Origin: Anaerolineaceae bacterium
Lineage (GTDB): Bacteria; Chloroflexota; Anaerolineae; Anaerolineales; UBA11657
Assembly: GCA_003569365.1 (NCBI GenBank)
Contig: BGOS01000003.1
Location: 128,315-192,314 of the forward strand
Length of the DNA: 64,000 nt
Direction: 5' to 3'
Within the stretch, counting starts at the first letter, position 1; each line of letters begins with the position of its first letter. Shown piece by piece: positions 29,352 through 39,185 of the stretch. A model generated the notes under the pieces. It ran no database searches and was not told the DNA's origin. It worked only from the letters and a program-made list of their open reading frames with translations. The translations under genes and the position numbers were made by a program.

Positions 29352-30356
29352 ATGTTTAGAGCGTGGGTTCAAAATATGATGCGGCCGTTGGGAGCGCTAT
29401 GGCTGGCAGTATCTGTCGTCTTGCTGGCTGGATGCCAAGTGTTAGCTCCTGCCCCCCAGTTGCAGCTAACATTTATGGCGGGCTACAAGCCGCAGGCTAA
29501 TCTCCCATTCGTTGGTGTGTACGTTGCGCAGGAACGGGGACTGTTCCAGAAAGAGGGACTCAGCGTTGATATTCAGCATTCGGGCGGCGGCGCAGATAAC
29601 TTGCAGCTGCTCGTTGCCGGGAAGGTTCAGGTTACGACAGTAGATGCGGCCGTGCTGCTGCAGCGCCGGGCTGATCCTGGTTTGCCGCTGGTATCGATTG
29701 CGCTGATAGGTCAGACTGGACAGCAAGCGTACGTGGCAATGCAGGCCTCGGGCATGCGCACGCCGGCGGACTGGGCTGGCGCGAAGGTTGGCTACAAGGG
29801 GGCGCCGCCGCCGGATTTGTATGCAATTTTGGATGCGGCGGGCGTCGACCCGCTGCAGCTTGAGCTTGTGTCTGTGGGCTTTGATCCGCATGTTCTGACG
29901 ACGGGTATGGTGGATGTCTACCCGGTCTTTAAGTCCAACGAGCCGGATATCTTGGCGCGTGAGGGGCACGTGTTGACTGCGTGGCAAGCGGCAGATTTCG
30001 GCGTGCCCAGCTTGGGTCTTACTTACGCGACTACAGCTGATCAAATTGCAAATAAGCCGGTGGAGCTGGCAGCGTTCACGCGTGCAACATTGGCGGGCAT
30101 CGAGTACGCGAGTACGCATGTGGACGAGGCTGTGGACGTGGTGATGAAGTATGCGCCCGAGGCAGATCGCGCGCACATGCGCTACATGCTTGAGACGGAG
30201 CTGGCGGCGGGCAGGCCGGCGGGTGGAGCGGGATTTGGAGCCCAGACTGCTGCGCAGTGGGCGGCGCTGCAAGCCATGCTGTTAAAGTACAAGGCGCTTG
30301 CGAACGCGGTGCAGGTTGATCAAGTGTTTACAACCCAGTTTCTCGCTGGCAAGTGA
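29352..30356 (+). CDS. ABC transporter substrate-binding lipoprotein (NMT1/THI5-like)
   Basis: Lipobox VVLLAGCQ; 'MAGYKPQANLPFVGVYVAQERGLFQKEGLSVDIQHSGGGADNLQLLVAGKVQ'. Confidence 0.9.
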   Translation: MFRAWVQNMMRPLGALWLAVSVVLLAGCQVLAPAPQLQLTFMAGYKPQANLPFVGVYVAQERGLFQKEGLSVDIQHSGGGADNLQLLVAGKVQVTTVDAAVLLQRRADPGLPLVSIALIGQTGQQAYVAMQASGMRTPADWAGAKVGYKGAPPPDLYAILDAAGVDPLQLELVSVGFDPHVLTTGMVDVYPVFKSNEPDILAREGHVLTAWQAADFGVPSLGLTYATTADQIANKPVELAAFTRATLAGIEYASTHVDEAVDVVMKYAPEADRAHMRYMLETELAAGRPAGGAGFGAQTAAQWAALQAMLLKYKALANAVQVDQVFTTQFLAGK

Positions 30357-30500
30357 GCTTGTTGCAGTGCTGAAACCAATGTTTCGAATGTTGGCTTGTG
30401 CGAAATACAGTCGGTGCCCTGAGGCTCTGGCGGAACTTGGCACGGTTGTCACTGGCGCAGGCGTGGAAAAACCCATTTGGAAATTCGGCACCTTCCGCCC

Positions 30501-30528
30501 TTGACAGTATTGTGGAAGCGCGTATCAT
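30501..30528 (+). promoter_or_regulatory. Predicted sigma70-type promoter of the arginine operon
   Basis: TTGACA (30501-30506), 16-nt spacer, TATCAT (30523-30528); predicted start site coincides with the leader ATG at 30536. Confidence 0.55.
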
Positions 30529-30535
30529 TTCAGGA

Positions 30536-30607
30536 ATGTTAGCGATTGTTTCGCGTCGCGCTCGTACCATCCAGACACCGGTCTGGCTTTTTGCGTTCGG
30601 GCAGTAG
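30536..30607 (+). CDS. Candidate arginine leader peptide MLAIVSRRARTIQTPVWLFAFGQ
   Basis: 23-codon ORF with Arg codons CGT CGC GCT CGT at 30554-30565, just ahead of mutually exclusive hairpins and argC. Confidence 0.5.
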   Translation: MLAIVSRRARTIQTPVWLFAFGQ

Positions 30608-30665
30608 CGGTAGCGCTGCACCATAGACGTGAAACCGCCAGGCAATAGCTGGCGGTTTTTGTTTT
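30571..30665 (+). promoter_or_regulatory. Candidate trp-type transcription attenuator upstream of argC
   Basis: 1:2 CCAGAC/GTCTGG (30571-30586); 2:3 GTCTGGC (30581-30587) with GCCAGGC (30637-30643); 3:4 terminator CCGCCAG/CTGGCGG (30635-30655) plus TTTTTGTTTT. Confidence 0.55.
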
Positions 30666-30676
30666 AATTTGCAATC

Positions 30677-31687
30677 ATGATCAACGTTGGAATTTTTGGG
30701 GCTACCGGCTATACGGGGCATCAACTGGTGCAGTTGCTTGCGCGGCACGCGCAGGTACGCATTGCGTTTGCAACCTCGGAGGCTGACGCGGGCCGGATGC
30801 TGGCGGACGTGCATGCGCGGGCGCCGGCCATCCGCCTGGTTGCGGCTTCCGATGCGAAGCTTGAAGGCTTGGATGCTGCGTTTCTTTGCCTGCCGCATGG
30901 CGCGGCGGCGCGCACTGCTGTGCAGTTGGTGGAGCGGGGCGTGCGGGTGATCGACTTGAGCGCGGATTTCCGGTTGCGGGATGCGGCCACTTACGAGCAA
31001 TGGTACGGCGCGCTGCATCCTGCGCCGGCGCTGCTGAGTGAAGCGGTTTATGGATTGACCGAGCATGCACGGCCGGCGTTGCGCGGCGCGCGGCTCGTGG
31101 CTAACCCGGGTTGTTATGTAACGAGTGTGCTGCTGGCATTGCAGCCGGTAGTGGCGGGGCGGGCGCTGGCTGCGGGTGCAACTGTGATCGCGGATTGTAA
31201 ATCCGGGGTCACGGGCGCGGGACGCACACCGGCGCAGTATCTGCAATTTGCCGAGGTGTCGGACAACTTTAGTGCGTACAAAGTTGGGCGCAGCCACCGC
31301 CATTTGCCTGAGATGGAGCAGCTGCTTGCCGATTGGGGTGCCGCCCCCGGGCAGCTTGTCTTTTCGCCGCATTTGCTGCCGGTGCCGCGCGGAATACTTT
31401 CCACAATTTATGTGCCGCTGGCAGCGGGGTGGAACGAGGCACGTGTGCGCGCGTTGTATGCGGCGGCTTACGCGGGTGAGCCATTTGTGCAGGTGCTTGA
31501 TGCGGGTGCACTGCCTTCGCTGGCGCAGGTGAACCATTCCAATCTTTGTGCGTTGGGAATTGCGGTGAGCGGTCAGATGCTGATTGTGGTGTCGGCGTTG
31601 GACAATCTGATTAAGGGCGCAAGTGGGCAGGCGGTGCAAAATATGAATATTATGTTTGGCTTTCAAGAACGTGAGGGCTTGGAATGA
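30677..31687 (+). CDS. argC: N-acetyl-gamma-glutamyl-phosphate reductase
   Basis: VGIFGATGYTGHQLVQLL; NPGCYVTSVLLAL; HRHLPEMEQ. Confidence 0.96.
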   Translation: MINVGIFGATGYTGHQLVQLLARHAQVRIAFATSEADAGRMLADVHARAPAIRLVAASDAKLEGLDAAFLCLPHGAAARTAVQLVERGVRVIDLSADFRLRDAATYEQWYGALHPAPALLSEAVYGLTEHARPALRGARLVANPGCYVTSVLLALQPVVAGRALAAGATVIADCKSGVTGAGRTPAQYLQFAEVSDNFSAYKVGRSHRHLPEMEQLLADWGAAPGQLVFSPHLLPVPRGILSTIYVPLAAGWNEARVRALYAAAYAGEPFVQVLDAGALPSLAQVNHSNLCALGIAVSGQMLIVVSALDNLIKGASGQAVQNMNIMFGFQEREGLE

Positions 31688-32643
31688 ATCTGAGTGACGC
31701 AAGCACGCAGCGCGCGGCGGGTCAGGTGCAGCACTTTCTGTCTGTGAGCCAATTTACGCTGATGGAACTTGAGGCGCTGCTGGAGTTGGCAACACGATTG
31801 AAGCACGACCATCTTCATGGTGGAAACGAGCCTGTGCTGCGGGGCAAGACGCTGGCGCTGCTATTTCAGAAACCCAGTTTGCGCACGCGGGTGTCTTTTG
31901 AAATGGCAATGCGCCATCTGGGCGGGAGTGCGTTAACGCTGCTGCCGGGCGAGGTGAGCGTTGGCAAACGCGAGACGGTGGCGGATGCAGCGCGCGTGTT
32001 ATCCGGCTATGTGGACGGCATCATGGCGCGCATGAGCAGCCACACGCAGTTGCTTAAGCTGGCGCACAATGCAACCGTGCCGGTGATCAACGGACTCACG
32101 GATTACAACCATCCGGCGCAGGCTTTTTGCGATATGTTCACCATGCGCGAGGAATTTGGCCGGCTCGAAGGCTTGAAGCTCGGGTATGTGGGTGATGGCA
32201 ATAATGTGGCTACGTCGTTGTTGGCTGCGTGCATGCTGCTTGGCATTCATTTTTATATTGCGTGTCCTGCCGGGTATGAGCTGTCGCGGAGTGTGATTGC
32301 GCGGGCGTTGGAGCTGCGCGGAAGTGCTGCAACAGAATTGGTGGAGACCACCAGCGCCGCGCAGGCCGTGGCAGATGCGGATGTTGTCTATACGGATGCG
32401 TGGATCAGCATGGGGCAGGAGGATGAAGCGACCGAGCGCATGAAGGTGTTCCCGCCCTATCAGGTGAACAACTCGCTGCTGGCGCGAGCCAAGCGCGGGG
32501 CGCGGGTGATGCATTGCCTGCCGGCACATCGCGGCGACGAAATTACGGATGACGTGGCGGATGGGCCGCAGTCGCTTTTGTTTGTGCAGGCGCATAACCG
32601 ACTGCATGGCCAAAAGGCAATCGTGGCGCACTTTTTGCGGTGA
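31684..32643 (+). CDS. argF: Ornithine carbamoyltransferase
   Basis: FQKPSLRTRVSFEMAM; LTDYNHPAQAFCDMFT; MHCLPAHRGDEITDDV. Confidence 0.96.
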   Translation: MNLSDASTQRAAGQVQHFLSVSQFTLMELEALLELATRLKHDHLHGGNEPVLRGKTLALLFQKPSLRTRVSFEMAMRHLGGSALTLLPGEVSVGKRETVADAARVLSGYVDGIMARMSSHTQLLKLAHNATVPVINGLTDYNHPAQAFCDMFTMREEFGRLEGLKLGYVGDGNNVATSLLAACMLLGIHFYIACPAGYELSRSVIARALELRGSAATELVETTSAAQAVADADVVYTDAWISMGQEDEATERMKVFPPYQVNNSLLARAKRGARVMHCLPAHRGDEITDDVADGPQSLLFVQAHNRLHGQKAIVAHFLR

Positions 32644-33398
32644 GCACAATGGCTGGTATTCGTGTGGTCAAAGTTGGCGGCAATGAGCTGGACAGTGTGG
32701 CGTTCTGTGAAGGGCTGGCGGGCGTGATGGCGCGCGCTGGGGAGCGCCTGGTTGTGGTGCATGGTGGCGGGCGCGCTGTCAGTGCGCAACAGGTCGCATT
32801 GGGGCTGCCGGTTGTAAAGGTCGCTGGCCTGCGGGTGACGGACGCCGCTGCATTGGCTGTTGTGGTTGGCGTGTTGTGCGGCAATACCAACAAGATGCTG
32901 GTGGCTGCGTTACGAGGCAGGGGTGTTAACGCGGTGGGTTTGAGCGGAGTGGACGGTGGCATACTGCATTGCAAGCAGCTGCACCATCCCGCAGGTGATC
33001 TCGGGTTTGTGGGTGCGGTTGAGCGCGTGGATGCGCATTTACTGCATGTCCTGCTGGATGCTGGTTTCACGCCGGTGCTTGCATCGGTGGGCGCAGGTGC
33101 AGCTGGTACCCTGTATAACATAAACGCGGATGCGGCCGCGGCAGCGGTTGCAGTTGCGCTGCAAGCTGAGCAGTTAGAATTTGTGACAGATGTTGCTGGA
33201 ATAGTGGACGGGCAGCGCGTTCAAGCGAGGCTGAATATTTCACAGGTGGAGCAATTGGTGTCTGACGGGGTGATCCGCGATGGAATGCTGCCAAAGGTGC
33301 AGGCGGCACTGCAGGCGGCGCGCGCGGCGGTTGCTGTTCGCATTGTTGACCTTGCCGGCTTGGAGAGCGGTGCGGGCACGATAATTTCGGTTGGATGA
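32640..33398 (+). CDS. argB: Acetylglutamate kinase
   Basis: VVKVGGNELD, VVVHGGGRAVSAQ, LEFVTDVAGIVDG; start may be ATG 32649. Confidence 0.92.
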   Translation: MSTMAGIRVVKVGGNELDSVAFCEGLAGVMARAGERLVVVHGGGRAVSAQQVALGLPVVKVAGLRVTDAAALAVVVGVLCGNTNKMLVAALRGRGVNAVGLSGVDGGILHCKQLHHPAGDLGFVGAVERVDAHLLHVLLDAGFTPVLASVGAGAAGTLYNINADAAAAAVAVALQAEQLEFVTDVAGIVDGQRVQARLNISQVEQLVSDGVIRDGMLPKVQAALQAARAAVAVRIVDLAGLESGAGTIISVG

Positions 33399-33411
33399 GT
33401 GGGAGTAGCTT

Positions 33412-34638
33412 TTGATCATGCCGCGTTCTAATCAGGTTGAAGCGCCCAGTACTGACGAGGTCATTGCGGGCGAGGCGCGCTACTTGGTGCAGACGTATAC
33501 GCGGCCAGCGCGCGTCTTCACCCACGGCGAAGGTGCGTATCTGTTTGATGCCACCGGCAAGCGCTACTTGGATTTTGCCGCAGGGATTGCAGTCAACGCG
33601 CTTGGGCATGCGGATCCGGAGTGGGTGCAGGCGGTTGCCAAACAGTCAACGCGGCTGGCGCATGTGAGCAATTTGTATCACACAGCTGAACATGTGCAGC
33701 TGGCACAGCGGCTGGTGGAGCACTCGTTTGCTGACCGGGTGTTCTTCTGCAACTCGGGAACTGAAGCCAACGAGGCAGCGTTGAAGTTTGCCCGCAAATA
33801 TGCCTTCGTGCGGGCGGCTGGGGCTGCAACTGGCACGCGTGTGATTGCGTTCGAGAACGGTTTTCACGGACGCACTATCGGTGCGCTTTCAATGACGGCG
33901 AAGCCGCAATATCGTGAGCCGTTTGCGCCGTTGGTGCCGGATGTTGTGTTTTTAGCGCTCAATGATTTGGATGCGCTGGCTGCAGCTTTTGACGGCCACG
34001 TTTGCGCGGCAATCGTGGAGCCGATTCAAGGCGAAGGCGGAGTGAATGTGGCAAGCGCTGAGTTCCTGCGCGAGCTGCGCCGCTTGTGCGACGAAAGCGG
34101 CGCTGTTTTGATTTTTGACGAAGTACAGTGCGGTTTGGGGCGCACGGGCAGCCTGTGGGCGCATACAGCCACGGGCGTGTATCCGGACATTATGACGCTT
34201 GCGAAGCCGCTGGCTGGTGGTCTTCCGATCGGCGCGGTGTTAGTTACAGACGCAGTGGCGGCGGCGCTGCGGCCGGGTGATCACGGCAGCACTTTTGCGG
34301 CTGGTCCACTGGTGTGCCGCGCTGCGCAAGTGGTGTTTGACCGCGTGTCTGACCCACAATTTTTGGCGCGGGTGGCGGCCAGCGGGGCTTACTTGCGCGA
34401 CCGGCTGCTGGCGCTGGAGTTGGATAATATGCTGCAGGTCCGCGGTGCTGGTTTGTTATTGGGCGCCCAGTTTTCGGTGCCGGTAAAGCCGTTGATCGGG
34501 GCGGCGGCCGAGTGCGGGCTTTTGCTGATAAGCGCAGGCGACAATGTGCTGCGCTTGTGCCCGCCGCTGATTGTGGATCAGGCGCAGATTGATTTTGCGG
34601 TTGAAACTATTGGCAGCTGCTGGAGTGCGTTGCAGTGA
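33412..34638 (+). CDS. argD: Acetylornithine aminotransferase
   Basis: FCNSGTEANEAALKFARKYA, VEPIQGEGGVNVAS, LIFDEVQCGLGRTG, TLAKPLAGGLPIGAVL. Confidence 0.95.
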   Translation: MIMPRSNQVEAPSTDEVIAGEARYLVQTYTRPARVFTHGEGAYLFDATGKRYLDFAAGIAVNALGHADPEWVQAVAKQSTRLAHVSNLYHTAEHVQLAQRLVEHSFADRVFFCNSGTEANEAALKFARKYAFVRAAGAATGTRVIAFENGFHGRTIGALSMTAKPQYREPFAPLVPDVVFLALNDLDALAAAFDGHVCAAIVEPIQGEGGVNVASAEFLRELRRLCDESGAVLIFDEVQCGLGRTGSLWAHTATGVYPDIMTLAKPLAGGLPIGAVLVTDAVAAALRPGDHGSTFAAGPLVCRAAQVVFDRVSDPQFLARVAASGAYLRDRLLALELDNMLQVRGAGLLLGAQFSVPVKPLIGAAAECGLLLISAGDNVLRLCPPLIVDQAQIDFAVETIGSCWSALQ

Positions 34639-35147
34639 TTATCCGGCCGGCTGTGGCGGGTGATGTAGCGGGCATCCACAGCTTGGTGACGGAGTACGCC
34701 GGGCGTGGAGATTTGCTGCCGCGCACGGCCGAGTCGATTGTGGAGACGCTGCCCGACTGGCTGGTGGCCGAGCAGGACGGGTTAGTGATGGCTTGCGTCG
34801 CGTTGCTTCCATACAACGCGAACTTGGCTGAGGTGCGTTCCTTGGCAGTGAATGGCGCGGTGCATGGGCAGGGCTGGGGCGCAGCGATTGTGGCGGCTGC
34901 GATTGCGGAGGCGCAACGGCGCGGGATACCGATGTTGTTTGCGCTGACGCGGGCCGTGCCATTTTTCTTGCGCGCCGGGTTTGCAATAACCGATAAAGTA
35001 TTCTTTCCAGAGAAGGTATGGCGCGATTGCAATATTTGTCCCGTGCGTGAGGCTTGCGATGAAACTGCGGTGGTGCTGCATTTGGATTCTGTGCCGCACC
35101 TTTACGCAGAGCAAGCAGAGGCTGGTAGTGGTAACGTAAGTGCATGA
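34635..35147 (+). CDS. GNAT-family N-acetyltransferase (amino-acid N-acetyltransferase-like, probable ArgA function)
   Basis: IRPAVAGDVAGIHSLVTEYA; VRSLAVNGAVHGQGWGAAIV; located inside the arginine operon. Confidence 0.8.
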   Translation: MIIRPAVAGDVAGIHSLVTEYAGRGDLLPRTAESIVETLPDWLVAEQDGLVMACVALLPYNANLAEVRSLAVNGAVHGQGWGAAIVAAAIAEAQRRGIPMLFALTRAVPFFLRAGFAITDKVFFPEKVWRDCNICPVREACDETAVVLHLDSVPHLYAEQAEAGSGNVSA

Positions 35148-35204
35148 GCGGGTTTGGATAACTGCAAGTCATTGCTGTCGTAAATAATTGTTTCAGGAGT
35201 TTTC

Positions 35205-36467
35205 ATGACTAAAGTATTGGTGAAAAAGGTGGTGTTGGCATACTCTGGTGGCCTCGATACTTCGGTGATAGTGCCGTGGCTGCGCGAGACTTACAACTGC
35301 GAGGTAATTTGTTTTTGCGCAGACATCGGGCAGGCAGAAGAGCTCTCAGGCTTGCCGGAAAAAGCGCTCGCAAGCGGGGCGTCCAAGTGCATTGTTAAAG
35401 ATTTGCGCGAAGAATTTGCCGGTGAATTTTTATTCCCAATGCTGCAGTCGGGAGCCGTGTACGAGCGCCAGTATCTATTGGGAACCTCAGTGGCGCGGCC
35501 GTTGATTGCAAAGTGGCAGGTGGCGATTGCCGAGCAGGAAGGCGCTGACGCGGTGTCCCATGGTGCAACGGGCAAGGGCAACGATCAGGTGCGCTTTGAG
35601 CTGACTTACAAGGCGCTCAACCCGGCGCTGAAGGTGATTTCGCCGTGGCGCGAATGGAACATCCGCTCGCGCGAGGATGCGCTGCAGTACGCCAAGCTGC
35701 ACAAGGTGCCGGTGACTGCAACCGTGAAGTCGATTTACAGTCGCGACCGGAATTTGTGGCATCTGTCGCACGAGGGCGGCATTCTCGAAGACCCGGCGCG
35801 CGAGCCGGAAGAGCCAATGTTTCAATGGACGGTGTCGCCGGAGAATGCGCCGGACAAAGCGGAGCAGGTGGAGATCGGGTTCGAGCGGGGTGTGCCGGTT
35901 TCGCTGAATGGCGCGCAGCTATCTGGCGCTGCTTTGATGGAGGCGCTGAACGTGATTGGTGCGCGGCATGGTATCGGGCGCGTGGACATTGTTGAAAACC
36001 GGCTCGTGGGTGTGAAGTCGCATGGAGTTTACGAAACGCCGGGCGGTACCCAGCTTTATGCAGCGCATCGCGAGTTGGAGAGCCTGTGCCTCGACCGGGA
36101 CACGCTGCACTACAAAGAGCAGATGGCGCTGCGCTATGGAGAACTGGTGTACGACGGCAAGTGGTATCACCCGTTGCGCGAGGGCATGCAGGCGCTGATT
36201 CATGAAACGCAAAAGTCCGTTACGGGCTGGGTGCGCCTGAAGCTTTACAAGGGCACGCTGCGCTGCGTCGGCCGCTTCAGCCCGTATAGCTTGTACCGTG
36301 AAGATTACGCGACTTTCGGCGAGGAAAATGTGTACGATCAGAAAGATGCGCTTGGGTTCATAACTTTGTTTGGTTTACAGATGAAGGTGCGCGCCTTGAT
36401 GGAGATGAGTGCCGGCGGCAAGACGCGTTACGCGTCGATGGATTACTCGGCTTTCAAGCGGGACTAG
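35205..36467 (+). CDS. argG: Argininosuccinate synthase
   Basis: [49 protein letters not shown]. Confidence 0.97.
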
Positions 36468-36560
36468 CTGATATGGGCAGCTGCCCGTGGGTTGCGTGCC
36501 GGGTTGGTGCGCGCGGCGGACCACTCCTCGGTTTGAACCGAATTAGCTAGTGAGGTAGTA

Positions 36561-37777
36561 ATGCGGGCAATTGCCGAAGGACACGCCACGACCCCCACCG
36601 GGTTTAACGGTGGATCGGCGGCCTGTGGTCTTAAGACCTCGGGTGCCACGGATGTGTTCCTGGTGGTCTCAGACTTGGAATGCACGGCTGCGGCCGTGTT
36701 CACACGCAACCGTGTGGTGGCTGCGCCAGTGGTTGTGGATCGGGAGGCGCTGGCGAAGGCACGCAGTGGTTACCGCGGTGTGATTGGCAACGCGGGGAAT
36801 GCCAATGCGTGTACAGGTGCGCAGGGCCTTGCAGACTCGGAACAGACGCGGGTGTTGGCAGCGCAGGCAATTGGTTGCGACGCACGACAGTTGTTTGTAC
36901 TGTCCACCGGTGTGATCGGCAGGCCGTTGGATATGGACAAACTTGCAGTTGGAATTCAGGCTGCAGCCAGGTCGCTGGACAGGGCGGGCGGTGCAGCGTG
37001 TGCGCGCGCGATGATGACAACTGACACGCGCCCCAAGCATCTTGCGGTCGAAGTGGTTCTCGCGGGCGGCACGGTGTCGCTGGGCGGGATAGCCAAAGGC
37101 GCTGGCATGATTCATCCGGACATGGCAACAATGCTTGCGGTCCTGACAACGGATGCTGTGATCGACGCGCTGGACCTGCAGCGCATGCTGGATAGTGCAG
37201 TGGCCGGTTCATTCAACAGTATTTCGATTGACGGTGACACAAGTACGAATGACACGGTGCTGTTGCTCGCGAATGGCGCGAGTGGTGTCGCGGTGCGCGA
37301 GGACTCGGACGTGGCCCTGTTCGCAGAGGGTCTGGACTGCCTCTGTTTGCATTTGGCACAGGCGATTGTGCGGGATGGTGAGGGCGCGCGCCGGTTTGTG
37401 ACGGTGCGGGTTACTGGTGCGCCGGATGGCGCTGCCGCGCATGCGATAGCAAATGTCATTGCGACATCGCCTTTGGTGAAGACGGCGTTTGCGGGCGGGG
37501 ACCCTAACTGGGGGCGCATTCTCGCAGCGGCCGGCAGGGCGGGAGTGGCATTTGATCCTGCGAACGTGTCGTTGGTCGTGCAGGCCGGCGGGCCGGCAGT
37601 GCAGTTATTGGCTCAGGGCATGCGTGCTGATTACGTGAAGCGGCGGCTGCGGCGGTATTCAACGCGGATGAATTTGAGGTGCAGCTTGCAATTGGCAAGG
37701 GTGCGGGCGCTGCGCGTGTATTTACGTGCGACTTTACCGAAGAGTACGTGCGCATCAATGCAGACTACACAACTTAG
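36561..37777 (+). pseudogene. argJ: Bifunctional ornithine acetyltransferase/N-acetylglutamate synthase, apparent C-terminal frameshift near 37635
   Basis: Main ORF carries the catalytic region (KGAGMIHPDMATMLAVLTTDA); conserved tail EAAAAAVFNADEFEVQLAIGKGAGAARVFTCDFTEEYVRINADYTT* reads in another frame from 37637 to TAG 37775-37777. Confidence 0.85.
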
Positions 37778-37805
37778 CAATGCTGTGAATACCTGGATGG
37801 ACTAA

Positions 37806-39185
37806 GTGAGCAATAAATTATGGGGCGGGCGGTTTAGCAAGGATACTAACGTGCTGGTACGCCGCTTGAACGATAGTGTTGAGTTTGATCAGCGCTTGTG
37901 GAGCGAGGATATCCGGGCGAGCGGCGCGTGGGCGCAGGCACTGGCGCAAGCGGGTGTTCTAACGAGTGCGGAGTGTGCACAGCTGGAGGCCGGGCTGGAG
38001 TCGGTGCGGGCGGAGTTTACGACGGGCACTTTTGAATTTGCGGCAGGCGACGAGGATATCCACACCGCGGTTGAACGTCGGCTCACCGAGTTGGCGGGCA
38101 GCGTGGGCGGCAAGCTGCACACTGGCCGCAGCCGCAATGACCAAGTGGCCACGGACTTCCGCTTGTGGATTATGCAAGCATGCGAGGACTTGGCGCGCGA
38201 GGTATCCGGACTGCAGGCAGCACTCATTGAAAGTGCTGCCGCGCATCTGCACGCGATTATGCCGGGCTACACGCACTTGCAGCAGGCGCAGCCTGTAACG
38301 TGGGGCCAGTGGGCTCTCAGCCATTTTTGGCCGCTGGTGCGCGACGCAGCGCGATTGGCGAACGCGCGCGGTGCGGCGGGCGTGTTGCCGCTTGGCAGCG
38401 GCGCATTGGCTGGCACTGCGTTTCCGGTTGATCGTGATGCGCTGGCACGTGCGCTTGGGTTCACTTCGGTTTCGCCCAACAGCATGGATGCGGTAAGCGA
38501 CCGGGATTTTGTGGCGGACTTTTTGTACGCGGGCGCAATGATTGGTTTGCATCTGAGCCGGCTTGCGGAGCAGTTGCTGCTGTTTAGCAGTGCGGAGTTT
38601 GGCTATGTGGTGGTTGATGATGCGTACAGCACGGGTAGCAGCCTGATGCCGCAAAAGAAGAACGCTGATCCGCTCGAGCTTGCGCGCGGTAAGACCGGAC
38701 GGCTGCTTGGCAATCTGCACTCACTGTTGGTGGTGCTCAAGGGCTTGCCTTCAACTTACGACAAGGATTTGCAGGAGGACAAAGAGCCTGCATTTGACAC
38801 GTTTGATACTCTGCTGGCTTTGTTGCCGGTGGTGGCAGGTCTTGTCCGGTCGCTTGAGGTGCGGCCACAGGCGATGGCAGCGCGTTTGCTGCCGGGCCTG
38901 CTTGCAACTGATTTGGCGGATGAATTGGTGAAGCAAGGCGTGCCATTTAGAGCGGCGCATGGTTTGGTGGGTGTGCTTGTGCAGCGCGCAGACAGATTGG
39001 GTATTGCGTTTACTGAGCTCTCGTTCGCGGAGCGACAAAAGATTAGTGTGCATTTCACAGATGAGGTTTGGGCGCGGCTGGAATTCGAGCATTCCTTGCA
39101 GCGCCGGGCGCAGACCGGCGGAACGGCTAAGGCTGCATTAGAGGCGCAGCTTATGGCTGCGCGCGCGGCGGTTCGCGGTGAGTAG
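37806..39185 (+). CDS. argH: Argininosuccinate lyase
   Basis: KLWGGRFSKDTN; HTGRSRNDQVATDFRLW; STGSSLMPQKKNADPLELARGK. Confidence 0.97.
   Translation: MSNKLWGGRFSKDTNVLVRRLNDSVEFDQRLWSEDIRASGAWAQALAQAGVLTSAECAQLEAGLESVRAEFTTGTFEFAAGDEDIHTAVERRLTELAGSVGGKLHTGRSRNDQVATDFRLWIMQACEDLAREVSGLQAALIESAAAHLHAIMPGYTHLQQAQPVTWGQWALSHFWPLVRDAARLANARGAAGVLPLGSGALAGTAFPVDRDALARALGFTSVSPNSMDAVSDRDFVADFLYAGAMIGLHLSRLAEQLLLFSSAEFGYVVVDDAYSTGSSLMPQKKNADPLELARGKTGRLLGNLHSLLVVLKGLPSTYDKDLQEDKEPAFDTFDTLLALLPVVAGLVRSLEVRPQAMAARLLPGLLATDLADELVKQGVPFRAAHGLVGVLVQRADRLGIAFTELSFAERQKISVHFTDEVWARLEFEHSLQRRAQTGGTAKAALEAQLMAARAAVRGE

Follow-up and report, generated by a model that had tools for sequence, protein, structure and literature searches.

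The arginine operon in this stretch of DNA (the window, 64,000 nucleotides in all) is very probably controlled by a ribosome-mediated transcription attenuator of the trp/his type which senses charged tRNA-Arg. The parts of such an attenuator are found together in front of argC: an open reading frame (ORF) with clustered codons for the amino acid of the pathway, an intrinsic terminator, and an antiterminator just downstream of the sensor codons which excludes the terminator; the genes that follow make or charge the amino acid that would be sensed. We infer the start site, the translation of the ORF, the stalling and the response to arginine from the sequence. A point against this reading is that the leader in the window holds three Arg codons only. 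The parts and the basis for each are the following.

30501..30528, plus strand: promoter TTGACA-N16-TATCAT, presumably of the sigma-70 type; 11 of 12 consensus positions match
30536..30607, plus strand: ORF for a putative leader peptide of 23 aa, MLAIVSRRARTIQTPVWLFAFGQ; direct reading, homologous leaders before argC in relatives
30554..30565, plus strand: putative sensor codons CGT CGC GCT CGT (Arg Arg Ala Arg); direct reading, Arg clusters in related leaders
30571..30586, plus strand: hairpin 1:2, CCAGAC-ACCG-GTCTGG, putative pause hairpin and anti-antiterminator; reading and folding
30581..30643, plus strand: predicted antiterminator 2:3; folding, largely paired in 78 leaders
30631..30663, plus strand: predicted intrinsic terminator 3:4, GAAACCGCCAG/CTGGCGGTTTT plus T run; reading, covariation in relatives
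30677..31687, plus strand: argC, first gene of the operon thought to be controlled; TIGR01850, 4e-114
31684..39185, plus strand: argF, argB, argD, GNAT (ArgA-like), argG, argJ and argH; NCBIfam

The promoter was read as TTGACA (30501-30506) and TATCAT (30523-30528) with a spacer of 16 nt, and it was the only promoter-like site found in a scan of the 1 kb from 30000 to 31000. The ATG of the leader (30536) begins 8 nt past the end of the -10 box. From this spacing transcription apparently starts at or next to the ATG, and the ORF, which ends with TAG at 30605-30607, would therefore be translated as a leaderless message; TTGAC-N15..19-TAnnnT is found upstream of 54 of 78 related leaders. The sensor codons are codons 7-10 of the ORF, with the Arg codons CGT CGC at 30554-30559 and CGT at 30563-30565, and the arms of hairpin 1:2 are CCAGAC (30571-30576) and GTCTGG (30581-30586). 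When the sequence was re-read, the promoter, the ATG at 30536, the ORF, its Arg codons, hairpin 1:2 and the terminator all lay where the first-pass annotation had put them. It had also proposed an antiterminator of 7 bp between GTCTGGC and GCCAGGC (30637-30643). The pairing was recovered, but the helix is longer than that, since 30581-30587 with 30637-30643 extends inward by 30589-30597 with 30626-30634. Folded on 30577-30646, which is the RNA that stays accessible with a ribosome on the Arg codons and before the synthesis of arm 4, the antiterminator has an MFE of -32.1 kcal/mol (z = -3.3), and 1 of 200 shuffles was equally stable. When the entire leader is free, hairpin 1:2 and the terminator form in the folding. 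The terminator stem (30631-30641/30649-30659) is followed by the T run, directly before argC, and its pairing and that of the antiterminator are mutually exclusive.

The proposed mechanism is as follows. Transcription would begin at or next to the leader ATG. When Arg-tRNA is plentiful the ribosome would reach the TAG at 30605-30607 and cover the antiterminator, and the terminator would halt transcription before argC. When Arg-tRNA is scarce the ribosome would stall at CGT CGC GCT CGT (30554-30565) and mask arm 1; arm 2 would then be free to hold arm 3 in the long antiterminator, and RNA polymerase would continue into argCFBD-GNAT-GJH.

The operon behind the leader had been described as a complete arginine operon, and the NCBIfam assignments confirmed this, in the order argC-argF-argB-argD-GNAT-argG-argJ-argH. 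It should be noted that argJ is apparently frameshifted near its 3' end (window 37500-37805), where a change of frame is needed to read the C-terminal stretch CDFTEEYVRINADY; this appears to be an assembly error or a real mutation.

A search for ArgC in 251 genomes of the order separated a close group (48-64% identity) from distant homologues (33-40%). Within the host order the same leader layout is present in 15 of 15 testable genomes with a close-type argC, that is, an Arg cluster in a short ORF, an arm 2 able to pair with the 5' arm of the terminator, and the terminator before argC; two further genomes of the close group fall outside this count, one on account of a run of N and the other of a contig edge. 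The layout which relatives had been expected to keep, short ORF, Arg cluster, antiterminator pairing and terminator, is thus retained even at about 50% ArgC identity, and examples of the leaders are MNTTLFSRRARSTYMTKCLASRVN, MIAAHGRRRARRSHRTPGLAHDLA, MFANCFDSRRRSQSQVLACVA and MSQPVVLDPRARRPRQTPPVWYLGLPE. No Arg leader was seen before the distant argC homologues inspected, and those examined in genomes of the family and of f5 have Lys leaders in its place. The homologues inspected at 35-40% identity lie mostly behind LysX-like genes and hence look like LysW-type lysine genes.

A covariance model was built from 14 leaders and then from 20, and was used to search the order (400 genomes), the phylum (400) and the class (396). 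Matches better than about 1e-5 were read individually; the weaker matches that the first model gave above this value turned out to be plain terminators and were left out of the counts. The accepted matches precede argC in numerous families of the class and also lie before a separate argG (G026), before a cluster containing argD (G051), and before alaS at about 18 loci of one family. In the genome of the window itself the model, built for the Arg/Ala scaffold, found the argC leader only; it also misses the known Lys leader there. Three loci should be mentioned separately. A second copy of the leader near argD (L184/L261, G051:C47) does not have its Arg codons in the frame of the aligned ATG but in another one (MLHPQVPARRSRFAFWF). 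The argC leader of G740 (L171/L186) has an early TAG which breaks the aligned frame, and another frame which starts with TTG carries Arg codons, so that in this one genome the leader may be broken or re-framed. Upstream of argC in a Latescibacterota MAG (L032, about 430-545) a leader-like ORF MRRRRRPSINTGVASVHLTLME lies behind a promoter-like site and is followed by a hairpin over the Shine-Dalgarno sequence of argC (CATGGAGGTCGTTCCATG); this may be an Arg attenuator that acts on translation, in a different phylum.

The stems were analysed in an alignment of 78 leaders which was fitted to the terminator stem; the antiterminator was not used for fitting. The loci are related by descent and were found by a model trained mostly on Arg leaders, and p-values from them overstate the case. 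The first-pass annotation had called for covariation in the stems. For the terminator this was found in abundance: the stem is 96.5% paired, 42 cells are changed on both sides as compared to 5.9 in shuffles, seven pairs have changes on both sides, and the covariation is above all controls. For the antiterminator it was found in part. Of its cells 96.9% are paired, against at most 50% when the pairing is slid, and A-U replaces G-C at the edge; double changes are few because the core GTCTGG/CCAGAC is nearly invariant, and with 14 sequences the covariation of helix 2:3 did not differ significantly from that in shuffles. In the more distant leader of G182 both arms have apparently changed from GTCTGG/CCAGAC to GTCCGG/CCGGAC, as judged by eye; the automatic duplex search chose another pairing. 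Hairpin 1:2 is clear in the window and in many relatives, and in some it is weak or has a degenerate arm 1, so that the pause step may not be general.

The sensor codons were analysed by picking, at each of the 78 loci and blind to the identity of the gene, the ORF with the strongest cluster of a single residue. Of 56 arg leaders, 52 have more Arg than Ala codons, 1 shows the reverse and 3 are ties; of 17 alaS leaders, 16 have more Ala than Arg codons and 1 is a tie. The identity of the codons thus tracks the downstream gene, with a Fisher p of 9e-15 which is too small since the loci share descent, although the contrast is large. In 45 arg leaders target codons are more numerous in the start-codon frame than in either of the other two, and in 3 they are fewer, the corresponding numbers for alaS being 14 and 1; the mean number of target codons in the start frame as compared to the other two is 3.5 against 1.3 and 0.9 for Arg, and 3.9 against 0.8 and 1.2 for Ala. 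The alaS leaders (L219-L237 and L178, family f20) carry their runs of Ala codons, for example MKQSCVISAAAAAQTSGLVTSAA, on the Arg-type RNA scaffold; an Ala leader was not seen at the alaS gene of the window genome. The choice among synonymous codons is also biased. CGU, CGC and CGA account for 218 of 245 leader Arg codons and for 714 of 1040 Arg codons of the genes downstream (p 1e-11), and for GCC and GCU the corresponding fractions of the Ala codons are 101 of 103 and 606 of 1106 (p 2e-22), both p-values being too small because of kinship. CGU, CGC and CGA are read mainly by tRNA-Arg(ICG), and GCC and GCU mainly by tRNA-Ala(GGC). The codons, beyond the residues alone, seem to be selected in the leaders. 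Taken with the conservation of the leader and of the pairings, the match between codons and genes supports the view that the logic of trp/his attenuation would here be applied to arginine, as had been suggested.

The genome of the window has a second leader, MKYICTPPCCGAAKQSKKTNSIMMGLVCFRLAKHTV, before its lysW-lysX operon (L258, G000:C23:225385 down to 225183, minus strand), with the Lys codons in AAG CAG AGC AAG AAG and a terminator directly before lysW of this LysW-type operon. Among the LysW operons fetched from the family and the order, 12 of 12 have a leader with Lys codons in front of lysW (in G004 the 3' part only, beside a run of N), and a count of these codons gave 69 AAG and 10 AAA. 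In G063, G086, G114 and G196 (L270, L271, L272 and L274), and likewise before the homocitrate-synthase operon of G936 (L260), there are two tandem Lys leaders, each followed by a terminator-like hairpin. In the family of the window the arms of the Lys leader, GGGGTT/AACCCC, differ from those of the Arg type; the Lys leaders are, as judged from this comparison, built on the plan of the Arg leader with a different sequence.

Leader attenuators are textbook knowledge for trp, his, leu, ilv, thr and phe, and the biosynthesis of arginine is taught as being controlled by ArgR/AhrC or T-boxes. The first-pass annotation had pointed out this usual control, and no sign of it was found. ArgR (PF01316) was not found in the window genome and was found in 0 of 36 leader-bearing genomes, some of which are incomplete drafts; the control search was positive in 9 of 14 known genomes. 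Rfam, with the models for T-boxes and lysine riboswitches included, gave 0 matches at the gathering score in twelve leader loci. One further match, to a minus-strand sRNA, was discarded as being at chance level (E 0.38).

It might be argued that the leader is an RNA element which works independently of translation, such as an arginine aptamer or an antiterminator bound by a protein, and that the ORF is incidental. The core GTCTGG/CCAGAC is indeed more conserved than the peptide, and the scaffold is used in several reading frames relative to the hairpin. Yet the target codons sit in the frame of the start codon, and there is no Rfam match. Moreover, Ala codons stand before alaS on an identical RNA core and Lys codons replace Arg codons before the lysine operons, on the same plan, which is hard to explain without codon-specific stalling of the ribosome. 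We consider an element of this kind very improbable.

Another possibility is that the ORF does sense arginine and acts mainly through Rho, mRNA decay or arrest by the nascent peptide, as described for ORF34 of speF; in Salmonella this ORF with Arg codons controls speF through Rho and RNase G (PMC6386406). The fairly constant motif RARR/RRxRR would be compatible with an effect of the nascent peptide. Against this, the leaders differ in the frame in which the part C-terminal to the Arg run is read, the conserved unit includes a strong intrinsic terminator with a U run, and the apparent selection acts on codons and not on residues alone. It is hence highly unlikely that the leader works mainly in this way. 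That the terminator merely ends upstream transcription, with a chance ORF in front of it and argC read from a promoter of its own further downstream, deserves hardly any credence: the upstream genes are on the same strand as argC and a terminator there would insulate argC, but a strong promoter separates the terminator from the upstream gene, the ORF is conserved across families jointly with antiterminator and terminator, and when the 320-nt intergenic region was shuffled by dinucleotides 3000 times an Arg-cluster ORF with a strong terminator within 80 nt past its stop was found 0 times (the ORF alone 387 times).

Beyond the attenuator in front of argC, we lean towards a wider model. It proposes that a modular leaderless attenuator is used throughout the class as the main control of the genes for arginine, for lysine and, in one family, for alanyl-tRNA synthetase, and that it replaces ArgR and riboswitches. 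The codon run would be swapped on a shared scaffold, sometimes in tandem (Lys), and each run would be adapted to one isoacceptor, with CGU/CGC/CGA for Arg, GCC/GCU for Ala and mainly AAG for Lys. Arginine genes, and in parallel lysine genes, would be under a conserved attenuator whose codons match the pathway, in a deep lineage where the searches found no ArgR. Since Arg and Ala sensor codons are swapped as modules on a single RNA scaffold, one can test directly how new specificities of attenuators evolve. From the strong codon bias it can be predicted which tRNA isoacceptor becomes limiting first on starvation, and with the covariance models these elements, which Rfam does not match, can be annotated.

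The known leaders trpL, hisL, leuL, thrL, ilvL and pheL of the Proteobacteria likewise have a short ORF with a run of pathway codons, the pairings 1:2, 2:3 and 3:4, and a terminator before the first gene. The leaders presented here differ from them in the amino acid, arginine and also lysine and alanine, in belonging to an unrelated lineage, in the apparently leaderless ORF, and in having arms common to Arg and Ala leaders. In Streptomyces lividans eight leaders, mostly leaderless, were described, including AlaL before alaS, which was called new in 2021 (PMC8079986). AlaL is Ala-rich and stands before alaS as here, but its sequence, MNVIGRNIFATARATSSPVAAA, has no obvious relation to ours, and the list of eight holds no arginine or lysine leader (PMC8079986). 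In 2010 it was stated that no leader attenuators were known outside Proteobacteria, Actinobacteria and the authors' own Bacillus case (PMC2965389); the his attenuators of Firmicutes, with a leader peptide and a terminator/antiterminator, are found outside Proteobacteria as here, but for histidine only (PMC9413887; PMC2965389). Two systems sense arginine by an ORF in a different way. Two consecutive Arg codons in the upstream ORF34 of speF act on ornithine decarboxylase via Rho, exposure of the RBS and RNase G, with no switch of an intrinsic terminator and no biosynthetic arg operon (PMC6386406). The Arg-codon leader ORF rbfL of Staphylococcus aureus senses arginine limitation and blocks the RBS of a biofilm regulator, so that starvation represses, and unlike here it has no terminator (PMC13009471). 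ArgR/AhrC and T-boxes regulate the same kind of operon, and neither was found here, in the 36 genomes and the leader loci scanned, respectively. The first-pass annotation had called an Arg leader attenuator unusual, and in the open-access papers searched no attenuator of this type for arginine or lysine biosynthesis was found. What appears to be new here is the specificity for arginine and lysine, the lineage, and the sensor codons which can be swapped.
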